This document shows positions 18,405 to 37,440 of a stretch of 64,000 bases of DNA, piece after piece. The stretch is taken from positions 1 through 64,000 of the forward strand of contig MPMP01000008.1 in assembly GCA_002238565.1 (NCBI GenBank). The letters are read 5' to 3'. The DNA comes from Albidovulum sp. bin36. GTDB lineage: Bacteria > Pseudomonadota > Alphaproteobacteria > Rhodobacterales > Rhodobacteraceae. Each line of letters opens with the position of its first letter. The stretch's first letter is position 1. The position numbers and the translations under genes are program-made. A model generated the notes under the pieces. That model made no database searches, was not told the origin of the DNA, and saw only the letters and a list, made by a program, of their open reading frames with translations.

Positions 18405-19172
18405 TCATAGAGCCGCGGCAAGGAAAACCAAAGCGGCGATTTCGGCGCATTGCTGCGCGGCGCCCAGCACGTCGCCGGTTTGCCCGCCGATGCGTTTAAG
18501 GGCCAGCCAGCAGACCGGCGCGACGGCTGCTCCCGCTACGACTATCAGCGGTATGGAAACCCAGCCGACGCATGCCGCCGAAACAGCCGCGGCAGCGGCG
18601 ATGCCGCATATGATCGAACCGCGCCCGGGCCGGCCGACGCTCGCGGAAAGCCCGTCGGTTCTCGCGGGCGGCACTAGATGCATCGCCGCCGCCATCGCGG
18701 CTCTCGAAACGGCGCACGCCGAAATAAGCGCGGCAACCGCTCGATTTGATTCGGCCAGCTCCGCGATACCCGACCATCGGCCAAGAAAAAACAACCCGAT
18801 CGCGACGACGCCAAACGCCCCGATTCGACTGTCGCGCATGATTTTCAAACGCGAGTCCTTGGAACTTCCGCCCCACAGCCCGTCCGCAGTGTCCGCAAGG
18901 CCGTCTTCGTGGAGCGCGCCTGTGGCGGCTACGAGAAACGCCAGCGCCATCGCGGATGCCAAGAACCCCGACATTCCGAGAAATAGCGAAATTTCGACGA
19001 CGGCCGCCGCAGCGGCGCCCAGGAGCGCGCCGATGAATGGCCAGGCCCAGGCGCTGTCCGGAGAGAATCGACCGAAGCTCCCCGCGACCGGGAAGCGTGT
19101 AAGAAACCCGAGCGCCGCCGCTAGGTCGCCCGGCCGAGGCCGCCATTCGCCGTCGGAATTTTCATCGGGCAT
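18405..19172 (-). CDS. cobS: Adenosylcobinamide-GDP ribazoletransferase
   Basis: LGFLTRFPV, ATGALHEDGLADTADGLWGG, MRDSRIGAFGVVAIG. Confidence 0.93.
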   Translation of the reverse strand: MPDENSDGEWRPRPGDLAAALGFLTRFPVAGSFGRFSPDSAWAWPFIGALLGAAAAAVVEISLFLGMSGFLASAMALAFLVAATGALHEDGLADTADGLWGGSSKDSRLKIMRDSRIGAFGVVAIGLFFLGRWSGIAELAESNRAVAALISACAVSRAAMAAAMHLVPPARTDGLSASVGRPGRGSIICGIAAAAAVSAACVGWVSIPLIVVAGAAVAPVCWLALKRIGGQTGDVLGAAQQCAEIAALVFLAAAL

Positions 19173-19234
19173 GGTGAATTTATTCCATAGCTAGATTTTA
19201 TTTGTCTGCTAAATTCGAGTTTGCTGCAATTCAA

Positions 19235-20278
19235 ATGATGAGGTCGGTCTTGGAGGCTGAAGCGCAACCGTTCGATTCGCTGGAAAAATTCGCTAAGGCA
19301 ATCGAAAATCCTCCGAGCGCGAGCAGGCGCGCTCGCGATGAAGCTCTTGAACGGAACAGCCGGCTAACCAAGCCGGCGGGGTCACTAGGACGTTTGGAGG
19401 AACTTGCCGTCTGGTTCGCAAGCTGGAAAGGATTAGCCGCTCCCGAGCTCCTATCGCCCCGAATCGTGGTCTTCGCGGCGAATCACGGCGTGGCGGCGCG
19501 CGGCGTTTCGGCCTATCCCGCACAGGTCACCGCGCAAATGGTAGCGAATTTCGAATCAGGCGGCGCCGCTATAAATCAGCTGGCAAGAACGGCTCAGGCG
19601 GAGCTTCGCGTTCACGTATTGAGTCTTGATCGGCCGACGCGGGACATCGCGGAAGGCCCGGCGATGAACGAGAACGAGGCGGTCGAGGCGCTCTGCTGCG
19701 GATGGCGCTCGGTTTCGGATTGCGTGGATCTTCTGGTTGTCGGCGAAATGGGAATCGGTAATACGACATCGGCATCGGCGATCGCGCTGGCTCTATTCGG
19801 AGGGTCGGCTGGCGACTGGACAGGGGCCGGTACGGGAGTCTCCGGCGCGCGGCTCAAATACAAGTCTCGAATCGTGGAACAAGCGGTCGGAGCCAACAAG
19901 ACGTCGCTTTCGAACCCGCTGGAAATACTTCGCTGCCTGGGTGGGCGAGAAATCGCGGCAATGGCGGGCGCCATTGCGCGAGCGCGCGTTCTAGGAATAC
20001 CTGTGATTCTCGACGGATTTGTTTGCACGGCCGCCGCCTCGGTATTGCATGCCGTCGACGCGTCGCTACTGGATCACGCGGTCGCGGGGCATCTTTCAAA
20101 GGAATCCTCTCACGGAAAGCTATTGAGCGAGATGGGCATGTCGCCGCTATTGGACTTGGGCATGCGACTGGGAGAGGCTTCGGGCGCGGCTCTGGCAATT
20201 GGTCTTCTACGCAGCGCGGTCGAGCTTCATCGCGGAATGTCGACATTCGAGGAAGCGGGGGTCTCCTCCGCTGATTGA
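19235..20278 (+). CDS. cobT: Nicotinate-nucleotide--dimethylbenzimidazole phosphoribosyltransferase
   Basis: NSRLTKPAGSLGRLEELAVWFASWKG, VVFAANHGVAARGVSAYPAQVTAQMVANFESGGAAINQLAR, GEMGIGNTTSASAIALALFGG. Confidence 0.95.
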   Translation: MMRSVLEAEAQPFDSLEKFAKAIENPPSASRRARDEALERNSRLTKPAGSLGRLEELAVWFASWKGLAAPELLSPRIVVFAANHGVAARGVSAYPAQVTAQMVANFESGGAAINQLARTAQAELRVHVLSLDRPTRDIAEGPAMNENEAVEALCCGWRSVSDCVDLLVVGEMGIGNTTSASAIALALFGGSAGDWTGAGTGVSGARLKYKSRIVEQAVGANKTSLSNPLEILRCLGGREIAAMAGAIARARVLGIPVILDGFVCTAAASVLHAVDASLLDHAVAGHLSKESSHGKLLSEMGMSPLLDLGMRLGEASGAALAIGLLRSAVELHRGMSTFEEAGVSSAD

Positions 20279-20973: not shown

Positions 20974-22869
20974 ATGAAATTCTACTCTGCGGAAAGAACG
21001 GAGCGTTTGACGCTTTCTCAAGCGATCGTCAAATATCTCCAGGTTCAGTTCAGCGAATTTGACGGTGAGCAGCAAAGGCTAATTCGGGGTATTTGGGGCA
21101 TATTCGGGCATGGCAACGTGTCTGGATTGAGCCAGGCATTGGTCGAATACGGACAGGAACTTCCCTACTATCAGCCAGCCAACGAACAATCTATGGTTCA
21201 TGCATCTACCGGGTTCGCGAGGAGTATGAGACGCAAATCCACGATGGCATGCACGACATCAATTGGACCGGGGGCAACCAACATGATCACCGGCGCGGCG
21301 ACGGCAACTATTTGCCGCATTCCGGTGCTATTGCTTCCATCAGACTACTATGCATCCCGCTTCGGCGGAGTTGTCCTCCAGGATATCGAGCACCTGACTT
21401 CGGACGATATGTCGGTCACGGACACGTTCCGCATAGTCAGCCGGTTCTTCGATCGGGTTACGAGGCCGGAGCAAATCCTGACGTCGCTGCCCGAGGCCAT
21501 GCGCGTCTTGACGAGCCCATCGGAAACGGGCGCGGTTACAATTGCTCTTCCGCAGGACATTCAGGGCTATGCTTTCGATTATCCTTCCAAGTTCTTTGAA
21601 AGGCGCGTCTGGAAAATCGAACGTCCAATGCCTAGCCCGGACGGAATCAGGGAGGCCGCTGCCGCTCTCCGGAATGCCGAGCGACCATTCATCATCGCGG
21701 GCGGCGGCGTCCACTATTCTGAAGCTTGGCGGGAACTAGCCAAGTTTTCCGGAAAATTCGGCATACCTGTCGGAGAAACTCATGCGGGTCGCGGAGCGTT
21801 GCGAGACGGGTCGGACATTCTTCTAGGAGGCACGGGTCATTTGGGCACGCCGGCGGCGGCAAGAATTGCAGAAGAAGCAGATCTCATTTTTTGCATAGGA
21901 ACGAGGCTTAAGGATTTCACAACAGGCTCCAATTCAGCGTTTCAGAACCCGAATGTCCGCTTCGTTTCAGTGAATGTCAACAGCCGCGATGCATACAAGT
22001 TAGGCGCGCTGCCGATCACTGCGGATGCCAAGCTGGCCTTGGATGCGCTTGCGGAAGCGGCGCATGCGCTGAAAGTTAAGGCAAATCCGGAGTGGGTCGC
22101 CCGGGCAAAGAATCTTCGCGCTGAATGGGAACAGGTTAAGAATTCAAAAGTATTCGTTCAGCGCCACAATGAAAAGGTTAGCCAAGGGCAGCTTGTCGGC
22201 ATCCTGAACCAGGAAATGCGAAGCGGAGACACGTTGGTTGCCGCCGCCGGGACTATACCGGCCGACCTGACGAAGCTATTCGACGCAACCGGCGGAAAAA
22301 ACGTTCACATCGAATTCGGCAACTCCTGCATGGGATACGACATTCCGGCAAGCATAGGCGTACGCTTGTCCGATCCCGACGGGGAGGTGCTAATTCTCAT
22401 GGGCGACGGAAACTACCAGATGCACCCGATGGAACTAGTCACTGCGATGCAGGAGAGAGTAAAGATCACGATCATTCTCAACGTGAACAACGGGTACCAG
22501 TCTATCCACGGGCATCAAAAGGCTCTGGTGGGCCATTCACTTGGCAACGAGTTCAAGATTCGAGACCCCGAAACGAACCTTCTGGACAAGGGTCAATTCA
22601 TCGATGTGGACTATGTAAAAAATGCTGAGAGCATCGGGCTGAGAGCTTGGCTGGCCGAAAGCGAAGACGACATTCGTCGGGCCTTGAGAGAAGCTCGCGA
22701 TGAAACCGTTTCATGCATGATCGTCGTTCCGACGGAGAAATACAGATTTCCGCCGGATTCCGGCGTGTGGTGGGAAGTCGTAGGCGCCGAAGTGACGAAT
22801 GATCCAAAAACCAAGTCGCTTGTCGCCGAGCGCGAAGCAGGAAGGAGCAAGCAGCGCCTATACTATTGA
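20974..22869 (+). CDS. iolD: 3D-(3,5/4)-trihydroxycyclohexane-1,2-dione acylhydrolase (ThDP enzyme)
   Basis: IWGIFGHGNVSGLSQALVEY...LPYYQPANEQSMVHASTGFARSM; GDGNYQMHPMELVTAMQERVKITIILNVNNGYQSIHGHQ. Confidence 0.93.
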   Translation: MKFYSAERTERLTLSQAIVKYLQVQFSEFDGEQQRLIRGIWGIFGHGNVSGLSQALVEYGQELPYYQPANEQSMVHASTGFARSMRRKSTMACTTSIGPGATNMITGAATATICRIPVLLLPSDYYASRFGGVVLQDIEHLTSDDMSVTDTFRIVSRFFDRVTRPEQILTSLPEAMRVLTSPSETGAVTIALPQDIQGYAFDYPSKFFERRVWKIERPMPSPDGIREAAAALRNAERPFIIAGGGVHYSEAWRELAKFSGKFGIPVGETHAGRGALRDGSDILLGGTGHLGTPAAARIAEEADLIFCIGTRLKDFTTGSNSAFQNPNVRFVSVNVNSRDAYKLGALPITADAKLALDALAEAAHALKVKANPEWVARAKNLRAEWEQVKNSKVFVQRHNEKVSQGQLVGILNQEMRSGDTLVAAAGTIPADLTKLFDATGGKNVHIEFGNSCMGYDIPASIGVRLSDPDGEVLILMGDGNYQMHPMELVTAMQERVKITIILNVNNGYQSIHGHQKALVGHSLGNEFKIRDPETNLLDKGQFIDVDYVKNAESIGLRAWLAESEDDIRRALREARDETVSCMIVVPTEKYRFPPDSGVWWEVVGAEVTNDPKTKSLVAEREAGRSKQRLYY

Positions 22870-23242
22870 CCTTCAGCCAATTGGAGGCGCGTCGGATCGA
22901 CTAGCCGCTGCTGCTGGAGCCTCGGAGTCCCAGTTTAATTCGATCGTCGAGACCGACCGCTGGCACTGCGTGCGATGATTGTTAACCGGTCAGTATCTTT
23001 CATGCATCTGCTTTTGCTTCCCCCGTTTTCCGCCGCCGCCTTTTTTTTGCTCGCTGGCGCGCAAGGCAACATCGAGGGAAGGGCAAACCGACCGGCGCGA
23101 CCGAGAAAGAAGGCTTCCCGGCGCGCCAATACTTCGGTTGTTGGATAAAGTGGTTCCCAACCCATGTATTCAGCGAGACCGGTAATCTGTTGACTAGATT
23201 CAAATGAACTGATTAAGTTGTTTTCAATTGGGTCGCCAATTG

Positions 23243-24091
23243 ATGATCCGCGAACTCGAGGCGGTGGAAGGAGCGGTGGATTTGAGATTCGACAATAAGG
23301 CAATCGTTGTAACGGGCGGAACGCAGGGCGTTGGCCGCGCAACCGCCAAATTGCTGGCCGAAAGGGGAGCGAGGGCCGTTGCGATTTGCGGGCGATCGGC
23401 TGATAACGGAAATTCGGTTGCCGAAGAAATCAGGGAGCTGGGATCAGAGGCATTATTCGTGCAAGCCGACTTGTCGCTTCCCGAAGACTGTTTCGCCGTA
23501 ATAGATCGCGCCGAAGAAGCGTTCGGCGACCTCGGCTGCCTCGTGAACTGCTGCGGCTGCACGACCCGGGGAACACTTGAAAGCACCACGCCCGATCTCT
23601 GGGATTATCTCTTCAACGTCAATGTACGAGCGCCGTTTCTCCTTACGCAGAGAGTCGTGCCCAACATCCGCAGGCATGGAAGAGGCGGGACGATTGCCAA
23701 CATTGGGTCTGTTGCCGCGTACGGAGGCCAACCTTACATTACCGCCTACAGCGCCGCGAAGGCCGCCCTGCTCACATTGACCAAGAATCTGGCCAATTCC
23801 TTGCGCTGGGACAAGATTCGGGTCAACGCTCTCAACATCGGCTGGACCGCTACGCCGACTGAACACGATCTGCAGGCGAATTACCACGGCTATGGGGAGA
23901 ACTGGCTCGAATCAGCTTCTGCAGCTCAGCCATTTGGACGCTTGCTTCTACCGGAGGATATTGCAAGGGCGTTGGCGTTCCTGCTGTCCGACGAATCCGG
24001 GATTATGACCGGTTCGATAGTGGATTTTGACCAAACTGTTGTCGGAGCTGTCGATGACAATCCGGTCGGAGATTCCATTGCCGATGCTTGA
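23243..24091 (+). CDS. SDR family oxidoreductase
   Basis: KAIVVTGGTQGVGRATAKLLAERGARAVAICGRS, TAYSAAKAALLTLTKNLANSL. Confidence 0.9.
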   Translation: MIRELEAVEGAVDLRFDNKAIVVTGGTQGVGRATAKLLAERGARAVAICGRSADNGNSVAEEIRELGSEALFVQADLSLPEDCFAVIDRAEEAFGDLGCLVNCCGCTTRGTLESTTPDLWDYLFNVNVRAPFLLTQRVVPNIRRHGRGGTIANIGSVAAYGGQPYITAYSAAKAALLTLTKNLANSLRWDKIRVNALNIGWTATPTEHDLQANYHGYGENWLESASAAQPFGRLLLPEDIARALAFLLSDESGIMTGSIVDFDQTVVGAVDDNPVGDSIADA

Positions 24092-24187
24092 GCATTATAC
24101 GCGCGATGCAGCTTTTCGGACCGGTTATGGAACAGGGCGGAGCACCGTCGGCGTCGGAATGACGGCCAGTTGCGCGGAGCTCGCAAC

Positions 24188-25720
24188 ATGCAGGAAGTGA
24201 GTTCTACTTCGCGCCGTCAATTGTTGTGCGCATTGCGCAACGTTTCAAAGCGCTTCGGCAACATTCAGGCCTGCCAAGGAATAGATCTAGAGTTGTTCAC
24301 GGGCGAAGTGGTTGCCGTCGTCGGAGAGAACGGCGCCGGGAAGAGCACTGTTTCAAAGTGCCTTTACGGCCTTTATTCGCCTAGCGAAGGGCATGTCGAA
24401 TTCGATGGAAAACCTGTCGAATTCAGGGGCCCCAGCGACGGAGAGAATGCTGGAATCGTAATGATTCCGCAGGAGCTGGATCTGTTTCCCGAGCTCTCGG
24501 TCGTAGAAAACATTTGGATGGGTCTCGAACGTCCGCGACGCTGGTTCGGAGCATTCGATGCCGGCGCGATGGAGAAGAGAGCCCGCGAACTGTTGCATCG
24601 GCTGGGACTGTTTGTCGATGTCAATACTCCGGCAAAACTCCTTTCGGCGGCAAACGGAAAGCTCGTTGAAGTGGCACGAGCGCTAAATGCCAATGCGCGG
24701 GTTATCATAATGGACGAGCCGACCGCGTCTCTTACGGAACGGGAAGTGTTTAATTTGTTTTCGGTTGTCCGCTCTCTCAAGAGAAGCAACGTGGCGGTGC
24801 TTTATATCACTCACAGGCTCGACGAGGTTTTCGAAGTCTGTGATCGGGCTGTCGTGCTGAGAGACGGAAGGATGATCTCGGACCGTCCTACAAGCGACGA
24901 AACGGTGTCCGGCCTTGTCAGAAAGATGGTTGGCCGCCCCGTTGAGCAACTGTTTGTGAGGCATCCTCATGAAATCGGCGACGTAGTGCTGGAAGTCGAG
25001 GGACTGGGTTCGGGCAGCGCATTCCAAGACGTTTCATTTCGGCTGCACGAAGGCGAGATTCTAGGAATATCGGGCTTGATTGGCGCGGGCAGATCGGAAA
25101 TCGCCGAAACGCTGTTCGGGCTGAGAGACCGAACCGCGGGAACGGTGAGGCTAAACGGAGAAATTTCCAACATTTCGAGCGTGCAGGGAGCCTTTCGCCA
25201 TGGAATAGGCATGGTTCCCGAGGAACGCAGGACTCTCGGACTGATCCTGCCATTTTCCGTCAAGCACAATGTTACGTTTTCCAGCTTGCTGAAATTCATG
25301 CGAAGCATCTTCATCGACACGTCGGCCGAGGACAAGTTCGCCGAAAACGCCGCCAAAGAGGTAACAATCGTCGGCGCCGGACTGGATGATCCTGTCTCGG
25401 CTCTTTCCGGAGGCAACCAGCAGAAGGTCGTTGTCGCCAAGGCTCTGGCGCGAAACCCGAAAATCCTGATACTCGACGAACCGACGCGGGGAGTGGACAT
25501 CGGCGCAAAGTCCGAAATCTATCGCATTATTGACGGACTGGCGAAGCAGGGGCACGCAGTCTTGATGATTTCTTCGGAACTGAACGAGATTCTTGCCATG
25601 TGCGACCGAACGCTGGTGATGCGCGAGGGACGTCTTGTTCGGTCATTTGATCGAAAGGACTTCTCGCCGGATGTGATTGGTTCGGCCGCAGCCGGAGTTA
25701 CGGTGGATTCCCATGCCTAG
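24188..25720 (+). CDS. Sugar ABC transporter ATP-binding protein (RbsA/MglA type, two ATPase domains)
   Basis: GENGAGKSTVSKCLYG, IIMDEPTASLTEREV, second domain LSGGNQQKVVVAKALARNPKILILDEPTRGVDIGAK. Confidence 0.92.
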   Translation: MQEVSSTSRRQLLCALRNVSKRFGNIQACQGIDLELFTGEVVAVVGENGAGKSTVSKCLYGLYSPSEGHVEFDGKPVEFRGPSDGENAGIVMIPQELDLFPELSVVENIWMGLERPRRWFGAFDAGAMEKRARELLHRLGLFVDVNTPAKLLSAANGKLVEVARALNANARVIIMDEPTASLTEREVFNLFSVVRSLKRSNVAVLYITHRLDEVFEVCDRAVVLRDGRMISDRPTSDETVSGLVRKMVGRPVEQLFVRHPHEIGDVVLEVEGLGSGSAFQDVSFRLHEGEILGISGLIGAGRSEIAETLFGLRDRTAGTVRLNGEISNISSVQGAFRHGIGMVPEERRTLGLILPFSVKHNVTFSSLLKFMRSIFIDTSAEDKFAENAAKEVTIVGAGLDDPVSALSGGNQQKVVVAKALARNPKILILDEPTRGVDIGAKSEIYRIIDGLAKQGHAVLMISSELNEILAMCDRTLVMREGRLVRSFDRKDFSPDVIGSAAAGVTVDSHA

Positions 25721-26723
25721 CGACCAGGGAGACGGAGTTGACGCCCGCAGCCCGAAAGATAGGCATGGACGTTCTATTTTATCCAACACATTGCTAGCGC
25801 GGCCCGAGACTCCGGCTCTTCTGTTTCTGATTTTGCTGCTCGCCGTATTCTCCGTGACGACGAAGGGCTTTTTCTCGGTCAACAACTTTATCGGAATACT
25901 CGAACAAGGCGTGATTATCGCCATCGTCGGCCTAGCCGTCAATCAGGTCATATTGTCCGCAGAAATCGACGTTTCCGTGGGGTCTGTTCTGGCTGTCTGC
26001 GCATTCATTTATGGAAACCTCGCGATGATGTTCGGCGGCAACTTGCTGCCGCTTTTTGCCACGTTGGCGGTCGGAACAGCCATCGGGCTCTTGAACGGAG
26101 TGCTGTCGACCTACGGAAAAGTGCCTTCGATTATTACGACTCTCGGCGCTCTTTTCGTCTACCGCGGCTTAATTCTTCTTCTTGCCGGGGCGCAGGTGCT
26201 CAATGTGCCCAAAACATCGAGAGTCCTTGGGTTGTCGGATGTCGCCGGCATACCGGTATCGGTGCTCCTCCTTGTCGTTTTAGCGGTAGGCTTCTACTGG
26301 GTAAGTACGAACACCGCTTGGGGGAGAAACATCTACGCCGTCGGAGGCAACGAGAGTGGCGCGACCACCCTCGGTCTTCCTGTCAACCGTACTCGCCTGA
26401 TTGCTTTCGTATTGTCGGGAGCGGCGTGCGGACTTGCCGCCGCGGGATTTCTGGGGCAAATCGGCCAATTGCAGGCAACTGCGGGGACGTCGTTCGAATT
26501 AAGGGTAATTACCGCGGTGGTGCTGGGAGGTACGAGCATTCGAGGCGGACGAGGCTCCGTATTCTCTCCGATCGTCGGAGCCCTTCTTGTTGGCGTCATT
26601 TTGAACGCAATGACTCTCAATAGGGTTCCGGGAACAATGGAACTGTTCGTATTGGGCGTCTTGATACTTCTTTCGGTCTCTTCCGAAGGCATTCGCCAAA
26701 GATACTTGGAGAAGAAGATATGA
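25713..26723 (+). CDS. Sugar ABC transporter permease (RbsC type)
   Basis: ILSAEIDVSVGSVLAV, RNIYAVGGNESGATTLGLPV, VVLGGTSIRGGRGS; overlaps ATPase gene by 8 nt. Confidence 0.9.
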   Translation: MPSDQGDGVDARSPKDRHGRSILSNTLLARPETPALLFLILLLAVFSVTTKGFFSVNNFIGILEQGVIIAIVGLAVNQVILSAEIDVSVGSVLAVCAFIYGNLAMMFGGNLLPLFATLAVGTAIGLLNGVLSTYGKVPSIITTLGALFVYRGLILLLAGAQVLNVPKTSRVLGLSDVAGIPVSVLLLVVLAVGFYWVSTNTAWGRNIYAVGGNESGATTLGLPVNRTRLIAFVLSGAACGLAAAGFLGQIGQLQATAGTSFELRVITAVVLGGTSIRGGRGSVFSPIVGALLVGVILNAMTLNRVPGTMELFVLGVLILLSVSSEGIRQRYLEKKI

Positions 26724-27706
26724 CTGAAAACCGTTCCGAGAAGGCTTGGACGGGCGCATCCTGGGGCAATCCGTTCGGCAAACTCGGGCGGACGACTGTT
26801 CTGGCGATAATCTTCATTTTCCAGATCATTCTTACAAGCGTTCTCGTTCCAGGCTACTTCAGCGTCTGGGGCCTTCTGGATGCGACCAGAGCATTCGTCG
26901 AAGTAGGTTTCATTTCCTTGGCGATGACTTTGATTATTATTACGGGCGGGATCGACCTGTCCGTCGGCGCGCTGCTGGCCCTGGTCTCGGTTACGATCGG
27001 GTTTTCCTATCAGGCAGGGCTGCCCTTAGGAGCGGCTTCCTTACTTGGAGTAATCGTAGGCGTCGCCGGGGGAACGCTTAACGGCTTGGTAACCACCTAC
27101 TTTCGCCTTCATCCGCTCGTGGTAACGCTTGGCACCTTCGCCTTGTTTCGCGGCATTGCCTTTGCCGTGTCCGATGCCGATGCCGTTTCCAATTTTCCGC
27201 AATGGTTTTCGGTCTTCGGCCAATACAAATTCGGCGGGATGGTTCCGGCGCAACTCGTCGTGCTCGTCATATGCGCCGTGATCTTCTGGCTACTGCTTTC
27301 CAAGACGCCATTCGGGAGATATGTATATGCGATAGGCCACAACGCTACCGCAAGCCGATTTTCAGGGGTTGCAACTCAAAAAGTTACGGTTGCCGTCTAC
27401 GCAATCATGGGACTCATGGTCGGGTTGGCCGGCCTGGTCCATACGTCGCGCATCTTCAGCGCTCGCGGGAATGCAGGATTTGGATTGGAACTTGTCGCCA
27501 TTGCGATTGTGGTTCTGGGCGGTGCGAGGATACTCGGCGGATCCGGCACTATCTGGGGAACGGTCATGGGCCTGCTGATACTTTCGTATCTGCAGGATGG
27601 CCTTAGCTTCGCCGGCGTAAGAGGAGATATCGGCCTCACGATCATCGGCTGCGCCCTGATTCTAGGCGTCTTCCTGAACGAGAATATCCAGAAGTTTCGG
27701 AAATAG
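26720..27706 (+). CDS. Sugar ABC transporter permease (RbsC type), second copy
   Basis: ITGGIDLSVGALLALVSV, RYVYAIGHNATASRFSGVAT, VVLGGARILGGSGTIWG; 4-nt overlap with preceding gene. Confidence 0.9.
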   Translation: MTENRSEKAWTGASWGNPFGKLGRTTVLAIIFIFQIILTSVLVPGYFSVWGLLDATRAFVEVGFISLAMTLIIITGGIDLSVGALLALVSVTIGFSYQAGLPLGAASLLGVIVGVAGGTLNGLVTTYFRLHPLVVTLGTFALFRGIAFAVSDADAVSNFPQWFSVFGQYKFGGMVPAQLVVLVICAVIFWLLLSKTPFGRYVYAIGHNATASRFSGVATQKVTVAVYAIMGLMVGLAGLVHTSRIFSARGNAGFGLELVAIAIVVLGGARILGGSGTIWGTVMGLLILSYLQDGLSFAGVRGDIGLTIIGCALILGVFLNENIQKFRK

Positions 27707-27907
27707 CGTTGACCGGTCCTCGGCTTCACGCCTTCCGCGCGCAAGGAATCGGTTGCGCGCATTCGCGATTCTGGCATATCGCGCCTGTGAGCGGACAAGC
27801 GCCGCTGCTGCGCATCGGCGCGATGATTGTTCGAGAAATCTCCGCGGGCAATGGCATTGCCGGCCGACGAGGGGACGGCCATGCGCGGCCGTATCCTAGG
27901 CGCGCGA

Positions 27908-28909
27908 CTAATTTGCGTCGACTTCAACCCGCTCGCCCGTCTCGTGCGACCGCCGCGCGGCATCCGCTAGCTGCAGCGCCCTGCGACCGCACCTGAAATC
28001 CGGTTGAACCGGCCGTCCAAGCTCAACCGCGGCAATAAACTCATCGAGTTCCGCTGCGTACGCCGGTAGGTATCGTGCTAGGAAATCCTGTTTCAACAAG
28101 CTTCTTGTAGCAGTACCCTCGCAAGTCCACGTCTCCACGCCAGTCATGTGATGATTGGTCGACGAAACCATGCCCTTGGACCCGAATACTTCGACGCGTT
28201 GATCATAGCCGTATGTGGTTCTGCGACTGCAGTCTATCCTGCAAAACGCGCCCGATTCGAAGCGCATCAATACGTGCGCCGTATCGGTATCGCCCAGACG
28301 GCCGATTTCCGGATCTACCAAATTGCTCCCCATCGAAAACACATCGATCTTTCCCGCTTCGCCGGACATCCAGAGCGCCATATCAAAATCATGGATCATC
28401 TGGTCGTGAAACTGGCCGCCGGATACGGCAATGTAGGAGCCTGGAGGCGGCGACGGATCTCTGCTGACAATCGCGATTGTTTCTATTTGTCCGATTTCGC
28501 CTCCGCCGACGAAACCCTTTACGGCTCTTAGAGATGCGTCGAACCGTCTTTGGAACCCTATCATGAGAGGAACAGGGCATTTGTCGAGTACGTCTTCGCA
28601 TTTCCTAACGCGGCCCATATCCAGATCAATCGGCTTTTCGCAGAGGATTGCTTTCTCCGCCTTGGCGGATTCGACGATCAATTCCGCATGAGTTTCGGTT
28701 GCAGATGCAATTATAACGGCATCGACCGATCTGTCCTCAAGGGCATCCGCGCCGCTTACAAGCGGGGTAGCGTTCAGCCGGTCCGCCAATCGGCGCGCCA
28801 GCTCCAGGTTCGGATCCACGACGTAGGCAAGTTCCGCGCCTTCGCGGGCGGCTACGTTGCCGGCATGAATCGATCCCATTCTTCCGGCGCCAAATACGCA
28901 AAATTTCAT
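27908..28909 (-). CDS. Gfo/Idh/MocA family oxidoreductase (inositol 2-dehydrogenase-like)
   Basis: MKFCVFGAGRMGSIHAGNVAA, CEKPIDLD, GGQFHDQMIHDFDMALWMSG. Confidence 0.88.
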   Translation of the reverse strand: MKFCVFGAGRMGSIHAGNVAAREGAELAYVVDPNLELARRLADRLNATPLVSGADALEDRSVDAVIIASATETHAELIVESAKAEKAILCEKPIDLDMGRVRKCEDVLDKCPVPLMIGFQRRFDASLRAVKGFVGGGEIGQIETIAIVSRDPSPPPGSYIAVSGGQFHDQMIHDFDMALWMSGEAGKIDVFSMGSNLVDPEIGRLGDTDTAHVLMRFESGAFCRIDCSRRTTYGYDQRVEVFGSKGMVSSTNHHMTGVETWTCEGTATRSLLKQDFLARYLPAYAAELDEFIAAVELGRPVQPDFRCGRRALQLADAARRSHETGERVEVDAN

Positions 28910-30129
28910 TCTTCAGCGTCTCGGCGCTGCGCCTTTCGAATCGGCGCCACATGCACCCATTCGCCGTTTCGGCTGTTTGACTCGACCGCGGCCTCGATAT
29001 GAGCCATCGTGCGCAAGCCGTCCAACGTATTCGGCAGAAGATCCAGAAAATGATGGTAGGGCTTCCCGAGTTTTCTAGCCGCTACGGCGCAGGCGAAATC
29101 GGAATAGAGATTGCCAAATGCCAAAATGTAGCCTTCGGGGTGCCCCGGCCTGAGACGCGACGCGCGATCGGCCGCGCCCGAAAGCTGGCCGTATCCCTTG
29201 GCAATTCGTATGGCCGCCTTCCCAATTGGCTTGAACCAGAGAACTTCAGGATCTTCCTGCACCCACGTGAGATTCCCTTTGTCTCCAAAGATTCTGAACC
29301 ACAGGCCGTGATCATTCCCGGCTGCAACATAGCTTCCCCAGACCCGGCCACGGGCGCCGTTTTCAAATCTGAGCATGACGTAGGAGTTATCGAATACTTC
29401 CCGTCTTTCAACGAATGTATTTAATTCGGCGGATACTTCGCTTGCATCATCGCCGACAACGTAAGTCAGCAAGTGGTGCGCGTGAGAAGAAACTTCTCCC
29501 AAGATCGCTCCCTCCCCCATCGTATCCCGGCGGAATCTCCAATGGCGATCATCGGGATCTTCCGGTTCGAAGCTGACGCCGGGATCGCCTGCGGCCAATT
29601 CTCCTTCAGCGATCCTTATCGTTCCCAATTCTCCGTTCCTAATCATTTCTCGCGCATGTCGGACCATGGGGTAGCCGGTGTAGCAGTGAGTGAGGCAGAA
29701 CAAGCGGTCATTCGCCAGCACCAGCCGATCAAGTTCCTCTGCTTCGGATAAACTGCGCGTCATCGGTTTTTCGCAGATCACGTCGATGCCGCATTCCAGG
29801 AACGACTTGGCAATAGGAAAATGCAGATTCGGAGGCGCCGCTATGGTCACTACGTCGATTCCGTCATCTCGTTCCGATTCGACGCGAGCCATATCATTGA
29901 AGTCCGAATACACGCGGTCGGAGGCAACGAACTCGGCGTCTGCGGTGGCTCGGGAAACGGCATGATCCACAGAAAATACTCCTGCGGTCAGTTCGTAGAA
30001 CCCATCCACTCGCGAGGCGGCCAAATGAGTGCCGCCGATTACCGAGTCGCGGCCGCCTCCTACAAACCCCAGACGCAGCTTGCGGCCGAACTCAATTCGA
30101 ATCCGGTCACTGGAAATTTTTTGAGTCAT
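28906..30129 (-). CDS. Gfo/Idh/MocA family oxidoreductase
   Basis: LGFVGGGRDSVIGGTHLAASRVDG, DVICEKPMTRSLSEAEEL, ILGEVSSHAHHLLTYVVG; 4-nt overlap with next gene. Confidence 0.88.
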   Translation of the reverse strand: MTQKISSDRIRIEFGRKLRLGFVGGGRDSVIGGTHLAASRVDGFYELTAGVFSVDHAVSRATADAEFVASDRVYSDFNDMARVESERDDGIDVVTIAAPPNLHFPIAKSFLECGIDVICEKPMTRSLSEAEELDRLVLANDRLFCLTHCYTGYPMVRHAREMIRNGELGTIRIAEGELAAGDPGVSFEPEDPDDRHWRFRRDTMGEGAILGEVSSHAHHLLTYVVGDDASEVSAELNTFVERREVFDNSYVMLRFENGARGRVWGSYVAAGNDHGLWFRIFGDKGNLTWVQEDPEVLWFKPIGKAAIRIAKGYGQLSGAADRASRLRPGHPEGYILAFGNLYSDFACAVAARKLGKPYHHFLDLLPNTLDGLRTMAHIEAAVESNSRNGEWVHVAPIRKAQRRDAEE

Positions 30130-30214
30130 AGGTGCACCGTTTGGATGAGTGCGAAATCCTGTTCATCCATTCGAACGCACTGCTGCTGACGGGCAGTGCC
30201 GCTGCGGACGGGTT

Positions 30215-30240
30215 GCTGCGGGGCACCTAAGCCCCGCAGC
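30215..30240 (-). terminator. 10-bp perfect hairpin between binding-protein gene and downstream dehydrogenase
   Basis: gctgcggggc-acctaa-gccccgcagc. Confidence 0.6.
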
Positions 30241-30248
30241 TACATTTG

Positions 30249-31280
30249 CTAAAAATCGAAATCGTCTACGTTTTCGGCCGTGAAGATAAATGGGTCACCT
30301 AGCAGGATGGTGTCCTCGCCGATGAACTGTAAATCCCCGAGTCTGCCGGCCGGCATGGACGCGTCTCCTCGTTTCACGGTGCCGTCGTGCAGCGCCTGTG
30401 CAATGTAGATTGCTCCGTAGCCTATGTCGATCGGGCTCCAAAGCGCAGCTTCCGTCAGCGAACCGTCCTTGAGGTACGGGCGGATAAGGCTGGGAACGCC
30501 AAGACCCGTAACCGCGACCTTGCCTTCCAGTCCAAGCTGCTTGACAGCTTCAATTACTCCGGGCGTGGCGATACCGGTTACGGTGAAAACGCCAGTCGTG
30601 TCGGGATTGCCTTGAAGGTAGTTGAGAGTGACGTTCTTGCTCTTCTCGAGGTCTTCATCGCCGGGCAGGGTCGCCATGAAATTCATGCCGGGATAATTCG
30701 CGGCGGCATATTCCTTGAGTTCCTTTATCCAGCGGTTCTGGTTCGGCGCAGTCAGGACGGCCGTTACAATCAGGAAGTCTCCCTCGGTGGTTCCGGCGGA
30801 GCGAACCATCATTTCGACGAAGGTTCGTCCCATTCCTTCGAAAGTGGCCTGGTTCAGGAACAAGGACCGCGCGTCGGGATTGACATCAGCATCCCAGGTC
30901 ATCGTTACGATCCCGGCATCCTGAGCTCTCTTCATTGCAGGCGCCAGCGCATCCGGGTCGTTTGCAGAAACCGCGATAACGTCGAACCGTCTTCGAACGA
31001 ACCGATCAATAATGTTCGCCTGTTCGGTGACATCCGCGCCGACCGGACCGTTGAACTCAACTGTAACTCCCAGTTCCGCCGCAGCTTCCTGCGCGCCTTG
31101 ATTGGCGGCAACAAAGTACGGATCGCTGGTAAATTTCGGTATCAGCCCTATAGTGATCCCCTGTGCCGAAACTGCAGACGCGCAGGCGATCGCGAGCCCC
31201 AATGCTGAAGCAGCGAGAAGAGCTTGTCTAATCTTCGATCCAATCAAGCCGAAGAGTTTTAATAACCCAATAAATTGCAT
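30249..31280 (-). CDS. Sugar ABC transporter periplasmic substrate-binding protein
   Basis: Signal peptide then ITIGLIPKFTSDPYFVAANQGAQEAAAELGVTVEFNGP; VIAVSANDPDALAPAMKRAQDAGI. Confidence 0.9.
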   Translation of the reverse strand: MQFIGLLKLFGLIGSKIRQALLAASALGLAIACASAVSAQGITIGLIPKFTSDPYFVAANQGAQEAAAELGVTVEFNGPVGADVTEQANIIDRFVRRRFDVIAVSANDPDALAPAMKRAQDAGIVTMTWDADVNPDARSLFLNQATFEGMGRTFVEMMVRSAGTTEGDFLIVTAVLTAPNQNRWIKELKEYAAANYPGMNFMATLPGDEDLEKSKNVTLNYLQGNPDTTGVFTVTGIATPGVIEAVKQLGLEGKVAVTGLGVPSLIRPYLKDGSLTEAALWSPIDIGYGAIYIAQALHDGTVKRGDASMPAGRLGDLQFIGEDTILLGDPFIFTAENVDDFDF

Positions 31281-31982: not shown

Positions 31983-32555
31983 TGGGCTTCGCCGCGCTAA
32001 TTGCAGGTTCATATTATATTGCCGTATTCCGATGCTCCCGCCACGCCTCAAATCCGCAATTCGCCCTTCTATTGCTAGAAAAATCCGCTTTCGGACAACT
32101 AGAAATCAATCCGCGAGGTCAGGATGTCTGAAAATGTTCATCTCGCTGCGACAGGCCCTCGGAAATTTCGACGGCGGTAGAACGATTGTTCCGCTCCGGG
32201 CATTTCGAGATTCGCGGTCGGCCGGGTTTTCTTCGAATTTTTCCGGAGGAGGGGCGCCGATGGTTTCGGCGAATAGAATTTCGATGCGCAGTTCGAATCG
32301 ATCGAGCGGAACTAGATTGCGCGCCGCGGATTCGGCGCCGGCTAACGCTGCTCCCGGGCGCGCGCATCGGGCTTTGCTCGCCGCGGTCCGACCCGGAATA
32401 AAGTCGCGCGGCTTTTTTGCGCGGCGGCGATTCGCTGGCAATATGGACCGAGAACCGGCCGGTCTCATTCGCCTATCTTTGGTTTTGCTGGCCAATACCA
32501 TTCAGTTTGGATAAAGCATAGGCTAGCCGCCAAGGGGTGCCGCAAGGATTGATCG

Positions 32556-35500
32556 ATGGAGCTTTTTTCTAGCAAGAATCGGGCCTTCCACCTTGGCCCG
32601 TATCCACTGGAAAAGCTTGCCCGCGCCAGCTCGGATTTGGACTTGTCGGGAATTCCGGATACTCCGCTGCCCAACTACGCGCCCGACCATCCCGATTCGC
32701 TTGCGCATGCAATGGGACGCTACGCCGCGATGATGGATACCGTGCGCGACGGTGCCGTCGCGCACGGAAAGGCCGATATTCCCGACGACCCGTCGGAGAG
32801 ATCAAGGCACCTAAAGGCCGCGGGGTATTACTTCGATTGCTCAATGGCGGGAGTTTCGCGCCTAGCGCCGAGCCATTTCTTGAACGAGCCGCGGCGAAAC
32901 CCGGATATCGAGGGAATCAGAAGGGAATTGGAGGCCGGGCAGCCGACTAGCTACGCCGCTGGCGTGGATGCCATTTACGCCGATATTCTCGCGGCCTCGC
33001 GAAATACTCCGAACCCGGTCCCTCACCACGGCCATGCTCTGGTTTTTCTTGTCGAATTCGCGCGCGAACCCGCCGAAGGCGAACCGGGCACCGAGTGGTT
33101 CCGCGGCACTCAGCTCGAGAGGGCGTCGCTGCTGGCCTCCAACACGGCGGTTGTCATCGCCAACTACATCAGGATGCTGGGATACGAAGCGCGAGCTCAC
33201 TCGATGTCGACTTCGGATGTCGACTTGTACAAGCTAAGCGTGTCGGCGGGCTTGTGCGGCATGGTGCGCGGACGGCTTTGCAACGCATTTGCGCGTCAGG
33301 GCTTCGGGCTCGCCGCCGTAACGACAGACCTCGAATTGGAGCCGGACAGGCCGCTGGCGAGGAATGCGGGGCGCGATGGCTTACGCAGCCACGGTCCGGA
33401 TTGGTGGCTTGGCCGCGGACTTGGCAAGCGGGCCGCTACCGAGATACCGTTCGCCAAGCGCGAATTCAGGCTGGGTCCGCACCCGTTCGAAAACCAGAGG
33501 CGCGTCGATAGCCCGACGACCTTTATCGACGAAGAGAGAGTGCCGAGGTTTCCCAAGCGCGCGGATTTTTTCGCAAGAGCTCTATTCGGCGACATGGGCC
33601 CCGCGGTTCAGGATGCCGCGAAGGGCGGGCACTACGTCATGAAAAGTCCGATTGGAGCCTGCGCAAGGCGCGCCCTCGGCGCTCTCCTCCTGCTTCAATT
33701 CGGCGACGCCCGGAATCCGCCAGCCGAAGATTCCGCCGACCCGGCGCGCAACGCCGACAACATCAAGGGTGCTTCCTATTATTTGACCACCGACGCCGTT
33801 GGTCTCTCCCGAGCGCCCGAATGGGCCTACTATTCCCATGATTCGGGCGGAAATCCGCTGTCTCCCTACCACGAAAATGCGATTTCGATGCTGTTCGACC
33901 AGGGATTCGACACAATGGAAGGCGCTTCCGGCGACGATTGGATATCGGTCGCCCAGTCGATGCGAGCCTATTTGAGGTTTTCGCTCGTCGGAGGCGTAGT
34001 GGCCGAGCAGATTCGCCGGAAGGGATTCTCGGCGCGCGTGCATTCGGTTCTCGACAGCGAAGTGCTTCAGCCGCCGCTATTGCTTCTGTCCGGGCTCGGG
34101 GAGGTTAGCAGAATAGGCGAAGTTATCCTCAATCCCTATCTAGGCCCGAGGCTCAAGGCCGGTACGGTAACGACATCGATGCCCATGAGCCACGACAAGC
34201 CAATCGATTTCGGCCTCCAGAAATTTTGCGAATCCTGCAACAAATGCGCGCGGGAATGTCCGTCGGGAGCGATCACCGCAGGTCCCAAGCTGATGTACAA
34301 CGGCTATGAGATCTGGAAATCGGACGCCGAGAAATGCACCCGGTACCGGCTAACGAACTCGGCGGGCGGCATGTGCGGCCGCTGCATGAAAACCTGCCCG
34401 TGGAACCTTGAAGGCCTGTTTGCCGAAGCGCCGTTCCGATGGCTGGCGAGCAACGTGCCGCGAACTGCCAAAACGCTCGCGAAACTCGACGACCGGCTGG
34501 GAAGGGGATCAATAAATCCCATAAAGAAATGGTGGTGGGATATCGAGCTCGACCGGCAAAAAGGGGCCTATGTCAAGGCGAAGTCTACGAACGAGCGCGG
34601 ACTGCAAACAAGCCTGGACCTTAAATACGAAGACCAAACGCTGGCGGTTTACCCTGCCGACACGATGCCGCCCCCGTACCCGCTCGCGCATCCTCTGGAT
34701 CGTGAAGAAGGGATAGAGCGATACAAAAGGCTGCTGGCGCCCGAAGAGTATCTGGACCGTCTCCGCCGCGGCGAATCCGAGGATTTGGCTCCCGCTCCGA
34801 AACCGCTGCGCGGACCGCCGCCGGTCGTTCCGGTGGTCGTCGCCAAGCGCGAGGATCAAGCGAACGGAATCGCGCGTTTCGAGCTTTCGGGAAAGCACGG
34901 CGAGTCTCTGCCTCGCTTCGAGGCGGGCGCCCATGTCGATGTGGTCGTCGCGCCCGAGTACCAGCGACAGTTTTCGCTGGCGGGCGACCCGGAGGATCGA
35001 TCCAAATACGTGCTCGGCGTGCAGCAGGAATCTTTGGGCAGGGGCGGTTCCGAATTGATGTTCAGGATTTTCCGGGAAGGTCGAAAAACATTCGTGTCCA
35101 GGCCGAGAAACCAATTCCCGCTCGACGAAAGCGCCAGTTTTTCACTTCTAATGGCCGGCGGCATAGGCGTAACTCCGCTGATCTCCATGGCCTACAGGCT
35201 TCACAGAATCCGCAGGCCCTTCGAACTTCACTACAGCGCGCGTTCCGCGGATTCGTGCGGCTTCGTCGATGAATTGCGAAACTCGCCGTGGTCGGACCGT
35301 GTCGCGTTCCATTTCTCGTCCCAGGGCGGACGGCCCCGGCTTGCGGATATCGTCCCGAGCTATCAGCCTGGATTCAAGATTTACGCTTGCGGGGGCAGCG
35401 GCTACATGGACGCGGTCTTCGATGCCGCGGAGGCGGCTGGCTGGCCGGAGGACGCTTGCCTAAGGGAGTATTTCTCGGTTCCCGAACTTCCCGAAAAGGA

Positions 35501-35771
35501 GCGATGGCCTTTCAAGCTTCGTCTGGCTTCAACCGGAATGGAAGTCGAAGTGCCCGCCGAGCATTCCGCCGTGGAAGCGCTGGCGGAGCGCGGGATATTT
35601 GTGGAAACGAAATGTTCCGACGGAATTTGCGGCGTCTGCGCGACACCGCTAATAGACGGCGAGGTCGATCATCGGGACTACGTTCTATCCAAAAAGGAGC
35701 GCAAGGAAAAAGTAATACTTTGCTGTTCGCGCGCTGCGGAGGAGAACGGCGAGCTAGTCGTCGGTCTATAG
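32556..35771 (+). CDS. Self-sufficient (catabolic, non-membrane) reductive dehalogenase fused to a flavin/NAD(P) and plant-type [2Fe-2S] reductase
   Basis: RdhA-like B12 domain; two ferredoxin motifs CESCNKCARECPSGA and CTRYRLTNSAGGMCGRCMKTCPWN; FNR-like RQFSLAGDPEDRSKYVLGVQQE and MAGGIGVTPLISMAYRL; C-terminal CSDGICGVCATPLIDGEVDHRDYVLSKKERKEKVILCCSRA. Confidence 0.88.
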   Translation: MELFSSKNRAFHLGPYPLEKLARASSDLDLSGIPDTPLPNYAPDHPDSLAHAMGRYAAMMDTVRDGAVAHGKADIPDDPSERSRHLKAAGYYFDCSMAGVSRLAPSHFLNEPRRNPDIEGIRRELEAGQPTSYAAGVDAIYADILAASRNTPNPVPHHGHALVFLVEFAREPAEGEPGTEWFRGTQLERASLLASNTAVVIANYIRMLGYEARAHSMSTSDVDLYKLSVSAGLCGMVRGRLCNAFARQGFGLAAVTTDLELEPDRPLARNAGRDGLRSHGPDWWLGRGLGKRAATEIPFAKREFRLGPHPFENQRRVDSPTTFIDEERVPRFPKRADFFARALFGDMGPAVQDAAKGGHYVMKSPIGACARRALGALLLLQFGDARNPPAEDSADPARNADNIKGASYYLTTDAVGLSRAPEWAYYSHDSGGNPLSPYHENAISMLFDQGFDTMEGASGDDWISVAQSMRAYLRFSLVGGVVAEQIRRKGFSARVHSVLDSEVLQPPLLLLSGLGEVSRIGEVILNPYLGPRLKAGTVTTSMPMSHDKPIDFGLQKFCESCNKCARECPSGAITAGPKLMYNGYEIWKSDAEKCTRYRLTNSAGGMCGRCMKTCPWNLEGLFAEAPFRWLASNVPRTAKTLAKLDDRLGRGSINPIKKWWWDIELDRQKGAYVKAKSTNERGLQTSLDLKYEDQTLAVYPADTMPPPYPLAHPLDREEGIERYKRLLAPEEYLDRLRRGESEDLAPAPKPLRGPPPVVPVVVAKREDQANGIARFELSGKHGESLPRFEAGAHVDVVVAPEYQRQFSLAGDPEDRSKYVLGVQQESLGRGGSELMFRIFREGRKTFVSRPRNQFPLDESASFSLLMAGGIGVTPLISMAYRLHRIRRPFELHYSARSADSCGFVDELRNSPWSDRVAFHFSSQGGRPRLADIVPSYQPGFKIYACGGSGYMDAVFDAAEAAGWPEDACLREYFSVPELPEKERWPFKLRLASTGMEVEVPAEHSAVEALAERGIFVETKCSDGICGVCATPLIDGEVDHRDYVLSKKERKEKVILCCSRAAEENGELVVGL

Positions 35772-36043: not shown

Positions 36044-37024
36044 ATGCCCGACAAATCGCTAGAGAGAGTAGCTGTAACCGGTAAGATTGTGGATGCCAGG
36101 TGGCTTGAAAGAAAATTCTCGAACAAGTTCGAAGTTTTCGAAATGAACCATTCCGAAGCTGCCAGCTGTCCGGAATCGGTGGCATCACTGCGCGCATTGA
36201 TCGGAAACGGCGCGTCTGCAGCGGAGATCGACAATTACCCAAGTCTCGAGATCATTGCTCAATTCGGCGTCGGCTACGAAAATGTAGATGTCGCATACGC
36301 GGCGGAGCGAGGAATCGTTGTAACGAACACGCCGGGAGTATTGTCCGACGAAACGGCCGATACGGCAATGGCGCTGCTCCTGAACGCGGTGCGGGAGTAT
36401 CCTCGCGCCGAGGCCTACATGCGCGCGGGCAAATGGCGGAATGAAGGGGATTATCCGCTTACGCCCGGTACGCTTAGGGGAAGAAAGGCCGGAATTTTCG
36501 GCTTGGGACGAATCGGCAAGGCCGTTGCGACTAGGTTAACCGCATTCGGGATTCCCGTAAGCTACTGCGGGCGCTCCAGGCAGGCCGATGTAAATTATCC
36601 GCATTTCGAGCGCCTGGTTGATCTAGCCCATTCGGTCGACACTTTGATAGCGGCGGCTCCCGGGGGCGACGCTACTCGACATGCCGTCAATGCCGAAGTC
36701 TTGACGGCCCTCGGTCCGAATGGAGTGTTCGTCAACATTGGCCGGGGAACAGTCCTGGATGAGTCCGCATTGATTGCGGCTCTTTCTACCGGCGCGATAA
36801 TGGCGGCGGGCCTCGATGTTTACGATCGCGAGCCGGATATAAATCCGAAGCTTTTTTCATTGACCAACGCGTGCCTGCTGCCGCATGTCGGGTCCGCGTC
36901 GGTCGCGACCCGTCGAGCCATGGCGGACTTGGCCGCTTCGAATGTCGTGTCCTGGATCGAAGAGGGCAAAGCCCTGACGCCGGTCGCAGAAACTGCTCAT
37001 CTTGCTGTGAGGAGCGGCAGCTGA
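36044..37024 (+). CDS. D-isomer-specific 2-hydroxyacid dehydrogenase
   Basis: GVGYENVDVAYAAERGIVVTNTPGVLSDETADTAMALLLN, GIFGLGRIGKAVATRL, VNIGRGTVLDE; internal ATG 36044 taken as start. Confidence 0.9.
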   Translation: MPDKSLERVAVTGKIVDARWLERKFSNKFEVFEMNHSEAASCPESVASLRALIGNGASAAEIDNYPSLEIIAQFGVGYENVDVAYAAERGIVVTNTPGVLSDETADTAMALLLNAVREYPRAEAYMRAGKWRNEGDYPLTPGTLRGRKAGIFGLGRIGKAVATRLTAFGIPVSYCGRSRQADVNYPHFERLVDLAHSVDTLIAAAPGGDATRHAVNAEVLTALGPNGVFVNIGRGTVLDESALIAALSTGAIMAAGLDVYDREPDINPKLFSLTNACLLPHVGSASVATRRAMADLAASNVVSWIEEGKALTPVAETAHLAVRSGS

Positions 37025-37047: not shown

Positions 37048-37440
37048 ATGGCGAAGCGGCACATCCACCCATATGAAACTCGCTACCATGCGAAGGCGAC
37101 TTATTCAAAAGCAATTCGCGCAAGCGGCGATTTCGTGTTTATGCAGGGTCAGGTCGGCGTGGATGATGACGGCAGGCTTGTGGGAAAGGGAGACCCTGGG
37201 CTGCAGGCGGACCAGGCGTGCAGGAATATCGAGCGCTGGATGAAAGAGGCCGGCGGCGAACTGTCCGACGTATGCAAATTGACCGTCTACGTAACCGACA
37301 TCTCGTATCGCCCCGCCGTGTACGAATCGATCAATCGGTGGTTTGACGAGGTTATGCACTGCAGCACGGGAGTCGTCGTGAGCGGCTTGGCCGATCCGGA
37401 TTTTCTTGTTGAAATAGACGCGATCGCAGTTATCGATTGA
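37048..37440 (+). CDS. RidA family protein
   Basis: YSKAIRASGDFVFMQGQVGVDDDGRLVGKGDPGLQADQACRNIERWMKEAGGELSDVCKLTVYVTD. Confidence 0.88.
   Translation: MAKRHIHPYETRYHAKATYSKAIRASGDFVFMQGQVGVDDDGRLVGKGDPGLQADQACRNIERWMKEAGGELSDVCKLTVYVTDISYRPAVYESINRWFDEVMHCSTGVVVSGLADPDFLVEIDAIAVID

Follow-up and report, generated by a model that had tools for sequence, protein, structure and literature searches.

Among the closest described reductive dehalogenases, BhbA of Comamonas sp. 7D-2 is cited in PMC13101508 as converting 3,5-dibromo-4-hydroxybenzoate to 4-hydroxybenzoate, and JtRdhA of Jhaorihella thermophila, a fused enzyme characterised in 2023, debrominates and deiodinates ortho-halophenols with NADPH (PMC10463259). 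JtRdhA contains cobalamin, FMN, two [4Fe-4S] clusters and one [2Fe-2S] cluster, couples the oxidation of NADPH 1:1 to debromination in air and is inhibited by chlorinated analogues (PMC10463259). For NpRdhA of Nitratireductor pacificus, the roles of residues Y426, K488, R552 and S422 are taken from PMC7565698, where the A419M substitution moved the relative preference of the enzyme toward the monohalogenated substrate. We analysed a stretch of 64,000 nucleotides from Albidovulum sp. bin36 (the window; contig MPMP01000008.1, positions 1 to 64,000), which carries a gene of this kind, here called rdhA, and compared the gene, its product and its surroundings with these systems.

A single gene for a fused RdhA and reductase

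The rdhA gene lies at 32556-35771 on the plus strand (stop codon included), exactly where the original prediction had placed it, as a single intact ORF with an ATG start that encodes 1071 aa. An AAGGA sequence resembling a Shine-Dalgarno site is found upstream of the ATG, the codon-position GC (63/48/70%) is coding-like, the chance of an open frame of this length is P ~5e-16, and the product aligns with database homologues along its whole length. Together with the profile, PDB and BhbA alignments, this open frame is annotated as a self-sufficient catabolic reductive dehalogenase. The product scores 176 bits against the NCBIfam RDH profile (cut-off 160), and its best PDB match is NpRdhA (4ras, E=1e-167), which covers residues 1-740 in two stretches; residues 761-1069 match the phthalate dioxygenase reductase (PDOR) 2pia (E=4e-59). 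An AlphaFold model (pLDDT 77, pTM 0.77, with low values around the clusters) gave the same picture in a structure search, with NpRdhA first (TM-score 0.79-0.82, normalised by NpRdhA) and PDOR-type reductases after it.

The protein begins with a vestigial copy of the cobalamin-binding domain (~aa 1-300, 32556-33455, plus strand), recognised from its alignment to domain 1 of NpRdhA, from the match of the core described below and from a weak RDH profile match at 32787-33356; within it lies an insert (~aa 107-155) that is absent from NpRdhA in the alignment. The catalytic core follows (~aa 301-735, 33456-34760, plus strand; NpRdhA alignment and profiles) and also matches residues 81-222 of NpRdhA, the N-terminal copy of that enzyme, which shows the vestigial duplication that is a hallmark of catabolic RdhAs. 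The two [4Fe-4S] motifs, supported by Pfam 4Fe-4S matches and by cysteine conservation, are CESCNKCAREC (C558/C561/C564/C568, 34227-34259, plus strand) and C594/C607/C610/C614 (34335-34397, plus strand). Further on, a PDOR flavin/NAD(P)-binding region (~aa 757-975, 34824-35480, plus strand) is marked by the 2pia match and by the motifs RQFS at 804 and GGIGVTP at 868, and a plant-type [2Fe-2S] domain (aa 986-1071, 35511-35768, plus strand; Pfam Fer2, 1.9e-8) carries C1020/C1025/C1028/C1056. The cysteine, flavin/NAD(P) and [2Fe-2S] motifs previously quoted for this gene are thus all present, including an ILCC motif, in which only C1056 is a conserved cluster ligand.

Residues Y472, K534, R598 and S468 of the core align with Y426, K488, R552 and S422 of NpRdhA and are shared by all 91 fused homologues, so that the catalytic Tyr/Lys/Arg set is conserved; the 12 cluster cysteines (8 of them in the two [4Fe-4S] motifs) are invariant in 34 homologues. 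The substrate pocket differs from that of NpRdhA at four positions (A419 to V465, N452 to V498, F310 to Y360 and P311 to V361), and hence the substrate preference may differ as well. V465 is found in 86 and V498 in 89 of the 91 fused homologues; BhbA carries Ser and Ala at these sites. Given the effect of A419M in NpRdhA, the V465 site may matter.

A weak match to the QueG profile (aa 483-617, 28 bits) raises the alternative of an epoxyqueuosine reductase fused to a reductase. Such a weak match is expected among class III cobalamin enzymes. The protein stays far below the TIGR00276 cut-off of 200, however, and passes the RDH profile with 176 bits, the genome carries a genuine QueG gene on contig C130 (435 bits), and K534, R598 and S468 are of the RdhA type, whereas QueG has F in the K534 column. 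We therefore rejected a QueG identity on sequence and give it a vanishingly small probability. A respiratory RdhA was likewise rejected, since neither a Tat motif nor a hydrophobic segment was found at the N-terminus, and the short stretches flanking rdhA yielded no RdhB-like membrane ORF. Both exclusions, and the lack of a Tat signal and a nearby anchor gene, agree with what had been proposed from the sequence, and the proposed BhbA/NpRdhA class also holds (50% full-length identity to BhbA, E=1e-167 to NpRdhA, RDH above its cut-off), except that NpRdhA itself has no reductase module.

Scanning GTDB genomes yielded 284 confirmed relatives, and full-length homologues occur in 33 of the 81 genomes sampled from the host's family, of which only four match the window protein at 65% or more, the window itself included. 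The family is a known one, common in marine and freshwater bacteria. In a core-domain tree, built by a quick method and leaving out JtRdhA and the roseobacter debrominase Ros_A3X954, the window protein groups with fused RdhAs in a 35-row branch of Rhodobacteraceae and Burkholderiales (SH-aLRT 99). BhbA lies outside this branch, and so does a second branch of 52 rows, mostly alphaproteobacterial and of roseobacter type; the QueG outgroup is saturated (branch length 10), which leaves the root unsure, and so only unrooted groupings are read from the tree. A literature search found no characterised member of the window's branch, which includes Limnohabitans (Burkholderiales). The original prediction had judged the enzyme the most promising one in the window for a new biochemical activity. 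That goes too far: a fused enzyme already had its activity described in 2023 (PMC10463259), homologues are common, and rdhA adds a new member and not a new activity.

The 52-row branch holds a second self-sufficient RdhA of the same genome (contig C141, 1056 aa, 52% identical), which could perform the same job as the window enzyme; none of the other genomes among the 81 sampled from the family has two copies. By eye, in the region L089:584-6992, the C141 rdhA lies directly downstream of tctC-tctB-tctA-like transporter genes, a setting that recalls bhbA next to a tripartite-tricarboxylate-transporter binding protein. In addition, two class-level relatives (G031, locus L112, and G025, locus L109) have shorter RdhA-like proteins, and the 465-aa frame of L112 seems to start directly with the core, lacking the vestigial copy, and keeps the catalytic Y/K/R/S.

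The neighbourhood of rdhA and its history

Two cobalamin genes upstream of rdhA and a gene remnant beside it had been overlooked in the earlier reading of the flanks. The genes cobS (adenosylcobinamide-GDP ribazoletransferase, 18405-19172, minus strand) and cobT (nicotinate-nucleotide--dimethylbenzimidazole phosphoribosyltransferase, 19202-20278, plus strand) are syntenic with rdhA in the subclade, where they lie just upstream of it in seven of the seven other members (L009, L011, L012, L013, L014, L018 and L067). The window's pair (18405-20278) is syntenic with that of the congener (L009), but a sugar/polyol-type catabolic cluster (20974-31280), identified by its gene content and absent from this place in L009, is interposed before rdhA. 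It comprises a TPP enzyme, an SDR, an ABC transporter, two Gfo/Idh/MocA dehydrogenases and a periplasmic binding protein, and is not part of the dehalogenase system. The linkage of rdhA to genes that complete the lower ligand of cobalamin is in keeping with a B12 enzyme, although an inherited ancestral position would look identical.

Immediately before rdhA, at about 32168-32332 on the plus strand, lies a decayed 3′ remnant of a 4-hydroxyphenylpyruvate dioxygenase (HPPD) gene with internal stops. This 165-bp stub matches the HPPD 3′ end at 60% over 40 codons, a score reached by no shuffled control. In L009, the space between cobT and rdhA holds genes for an Lrp-type regulator and for an intact HPPD (361 bits, cut-off 277), with HPPD directly preceding rdhA on the same strand at a distance of ~207 bp. 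As the stub occupies the matching spot, an HPPD gene most likely once lay upstream of rdhA in the window and has since decayed.

This decay, the 10-kb cluster that separates rdhA from cobT and the second RdhA copy in the genome could suggest that rdhA is itself a decaying or non-functional relic. Yet its frame is open, the catalytic residues and cysteines are all kept and a ribosome-binding site is present. Moreover, the comparison with L009 (dN ~0.11 and dS ~1.6, the latter near saturation) and a dN/dS of ~0.03 for the catalytic core, which has the same near-saturated dS and is undated relative to the HPPD loss, point to strong purifying selection on rdhA relative to L009. We consider a relic highly improbable.

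Downstream, a D-2-hydroxyacid dehydrogenase gene (36044-37024, plus strand), at most a candidate for a role in dehalogenation, is found on the same side of rdhA in L009. By eye, a RidA/YjgF-like gene (37048-37440) follows it, and this pair is also present beyond rdhA in L009. Across 93 loci, no single partner gene defined a conserved catabolic neighbourhood; the recurrent genes were those for a TRAP transporter and MarR, seen mostly in other branches, and cobS/cobT, seen in the window's subclade. Genes resembling a Rieske-type oxygenase and a Rieske ferredoxin recur downstream of rdhA in the MAG loci L012, L013, L018 and L067, a possible substrate hint for these members.

Proposed activity and substrate

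The rdhA product is very probably a cytoplasmic, oxygen-tolerant, self-sufficient reductive dehalogenase, with bromo- or iodo-4-hydroxybenzoates or similar ortho-halophenols as its likeliest substrates and with PobA and protocatechuate 3,4-dioxygenase as the probable drain for the product. The sequences establish the gene, its architecture, the conserved residues, the placement in the family and the presence of the downstream genes in the genome; the loading with cofactors, the tolerance to oxygen, the preferred halogen, the substrate and the drain are inferred, and the following mechanism is carried over from the characterised relatives. NAD(P)H would reduce the flavin of the PDOR module (FMN in JtRdhA), from which electrons would pass singly via the [2Fe-2S] domain and then the two [4Fe-4S] clusters to base-off cobalamin. 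With an ortho-halogenated phenol held at its hydroxyl by S468, K534 and R598, the reduced cobalt would engage the halogen, Y472 would give a proton, and halide and the dehalogenated phenol would be released, the latter to be drained by PobA and then by protocatechuate 3,4-dioxygenase.

The genome of the window encodes PobA (598 bits) and the protocatechuate 3,4-dioxygenase beta subunit (346 bits), both above their cut-offs, and both functions are also present in the congener. In the window genome, which is 94.6% complete, neither an HPPD above its cut-off nor hmgA was found, while the congener has both; together with the HPPD stub, this suggests that the window organism, unlike its congener, has lost the homogentisate pathway. 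No LigB-type extradiol dioxygenase was found in either genome. With pobA and pcaGH present and hmgA and HPPD not found, a halo-4-hydroxybenzoate processed via protocatechuate is the likeliest route; however, pobA and pcaGH are common genes of aromatic catabolism and are not adjacent to rdhA, and so they pick out no single substrate.

The HPPD gene could also mean that the same enzyme, in its ancestral job in this genus, acted before HPPD and the homogentisate pathway by dehalogenating a tyrosine derivative (halotyrosine or 3-halo-4-hydroxyphenylpyruvate), and that HPPD was since lost in the window organism. The intact HPPD gene and Lrp-type regulator directly before rdhA in L009, the decayed HPPD 3′ end at the matching position in the window, and hmgA in the congener with none seen in the window genome are all consistent with this. 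On the other hand, HPPD adjoins rdhA in one of ~90 relatives, plus the stub, the neighbourhood may be due to chance, and rdhA remained intact after HPPD had decayed. A literature search found no halotyrosine dehalogenation by enzymes of the BhbA/JtRdhA type, and nothing relevant that joins a reductive dehalogenase with halotyrosine or hydroxyphenylpyruvate. We regard a tyrosine-linked ancestral job as unlikely; it is also unlikely that the window's branch (Rhodobacteraceae and Burkholderiales, e.g., Limnohabitans) is specialised for a halogenated substrate of the tyrosine family that feeds HPPD and homogentisate, which, if true, would amount to an aerobic dehalogenation route for halotyrosines. 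The intactness of rdhA under purifying selection, despite the loss of HPPD, implies that the enzyme is probably independent of the homogentisate route here. The simplest route starts from a halo-4-hydroxybenzoate or a similar phenol and leads through PobA and PcaGH.

Comparison with known systems

Within a known, partly characterised class, the window's rdhA is unremarkable and well conserved, and the history of its locus is of modest interest; what is new here is its genomic context, namely cobS/cobT and the HPPD remnant. With it, a class that is of interest for the removal of bromo- and iodophenols in air gains an intact representative of a branch that has been little studied, and the cobS/cobT link and the HPPD neighbour provide testable hints on natural substrates.

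BhbA (WP_015585978) resembles the window enzyme in length (1071 aa) and domain order, is 50% identical to it end to end and shares the catalytic Y/K/R/S and the cluster cysteines. Unlike rdhA, its gene is plasmid-borne (pBHB, NC_021077) and adjoins genes for protocatechuate 4,5-dioxygenase and a tripartite-tricarboxylate-transporter binding protein; it also has a pocket Ser in place of V465 and stands on a separate branch of the tree. JtRdhA, as described in PMC10463259, is likewise a fusion of RdhA and PDOR with the vestigial duplication and the catalytic triad, and it also has no Tat signal and an alphaproteobacterial host. NpRdhA (4ras, 6zxu, 6zxx) shares the vestigial and core RdhA domains and the catalytic residues (44% over 685 residues), but it has neither the reductase module nor the insert at ~aa 107-155, and its pocket is formed with A419, N452, F310 and P311. 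The reductase module aligns over aa 745-1069 with 2pia and with the self-sufficient CYP116B P450s (6laa, 6kbh), in which the same plug-in reductase serves another catalytic partner. In summary, the true fused relatives of the window enzyme are BhbA and JtRdhA, and not NpRdhA.
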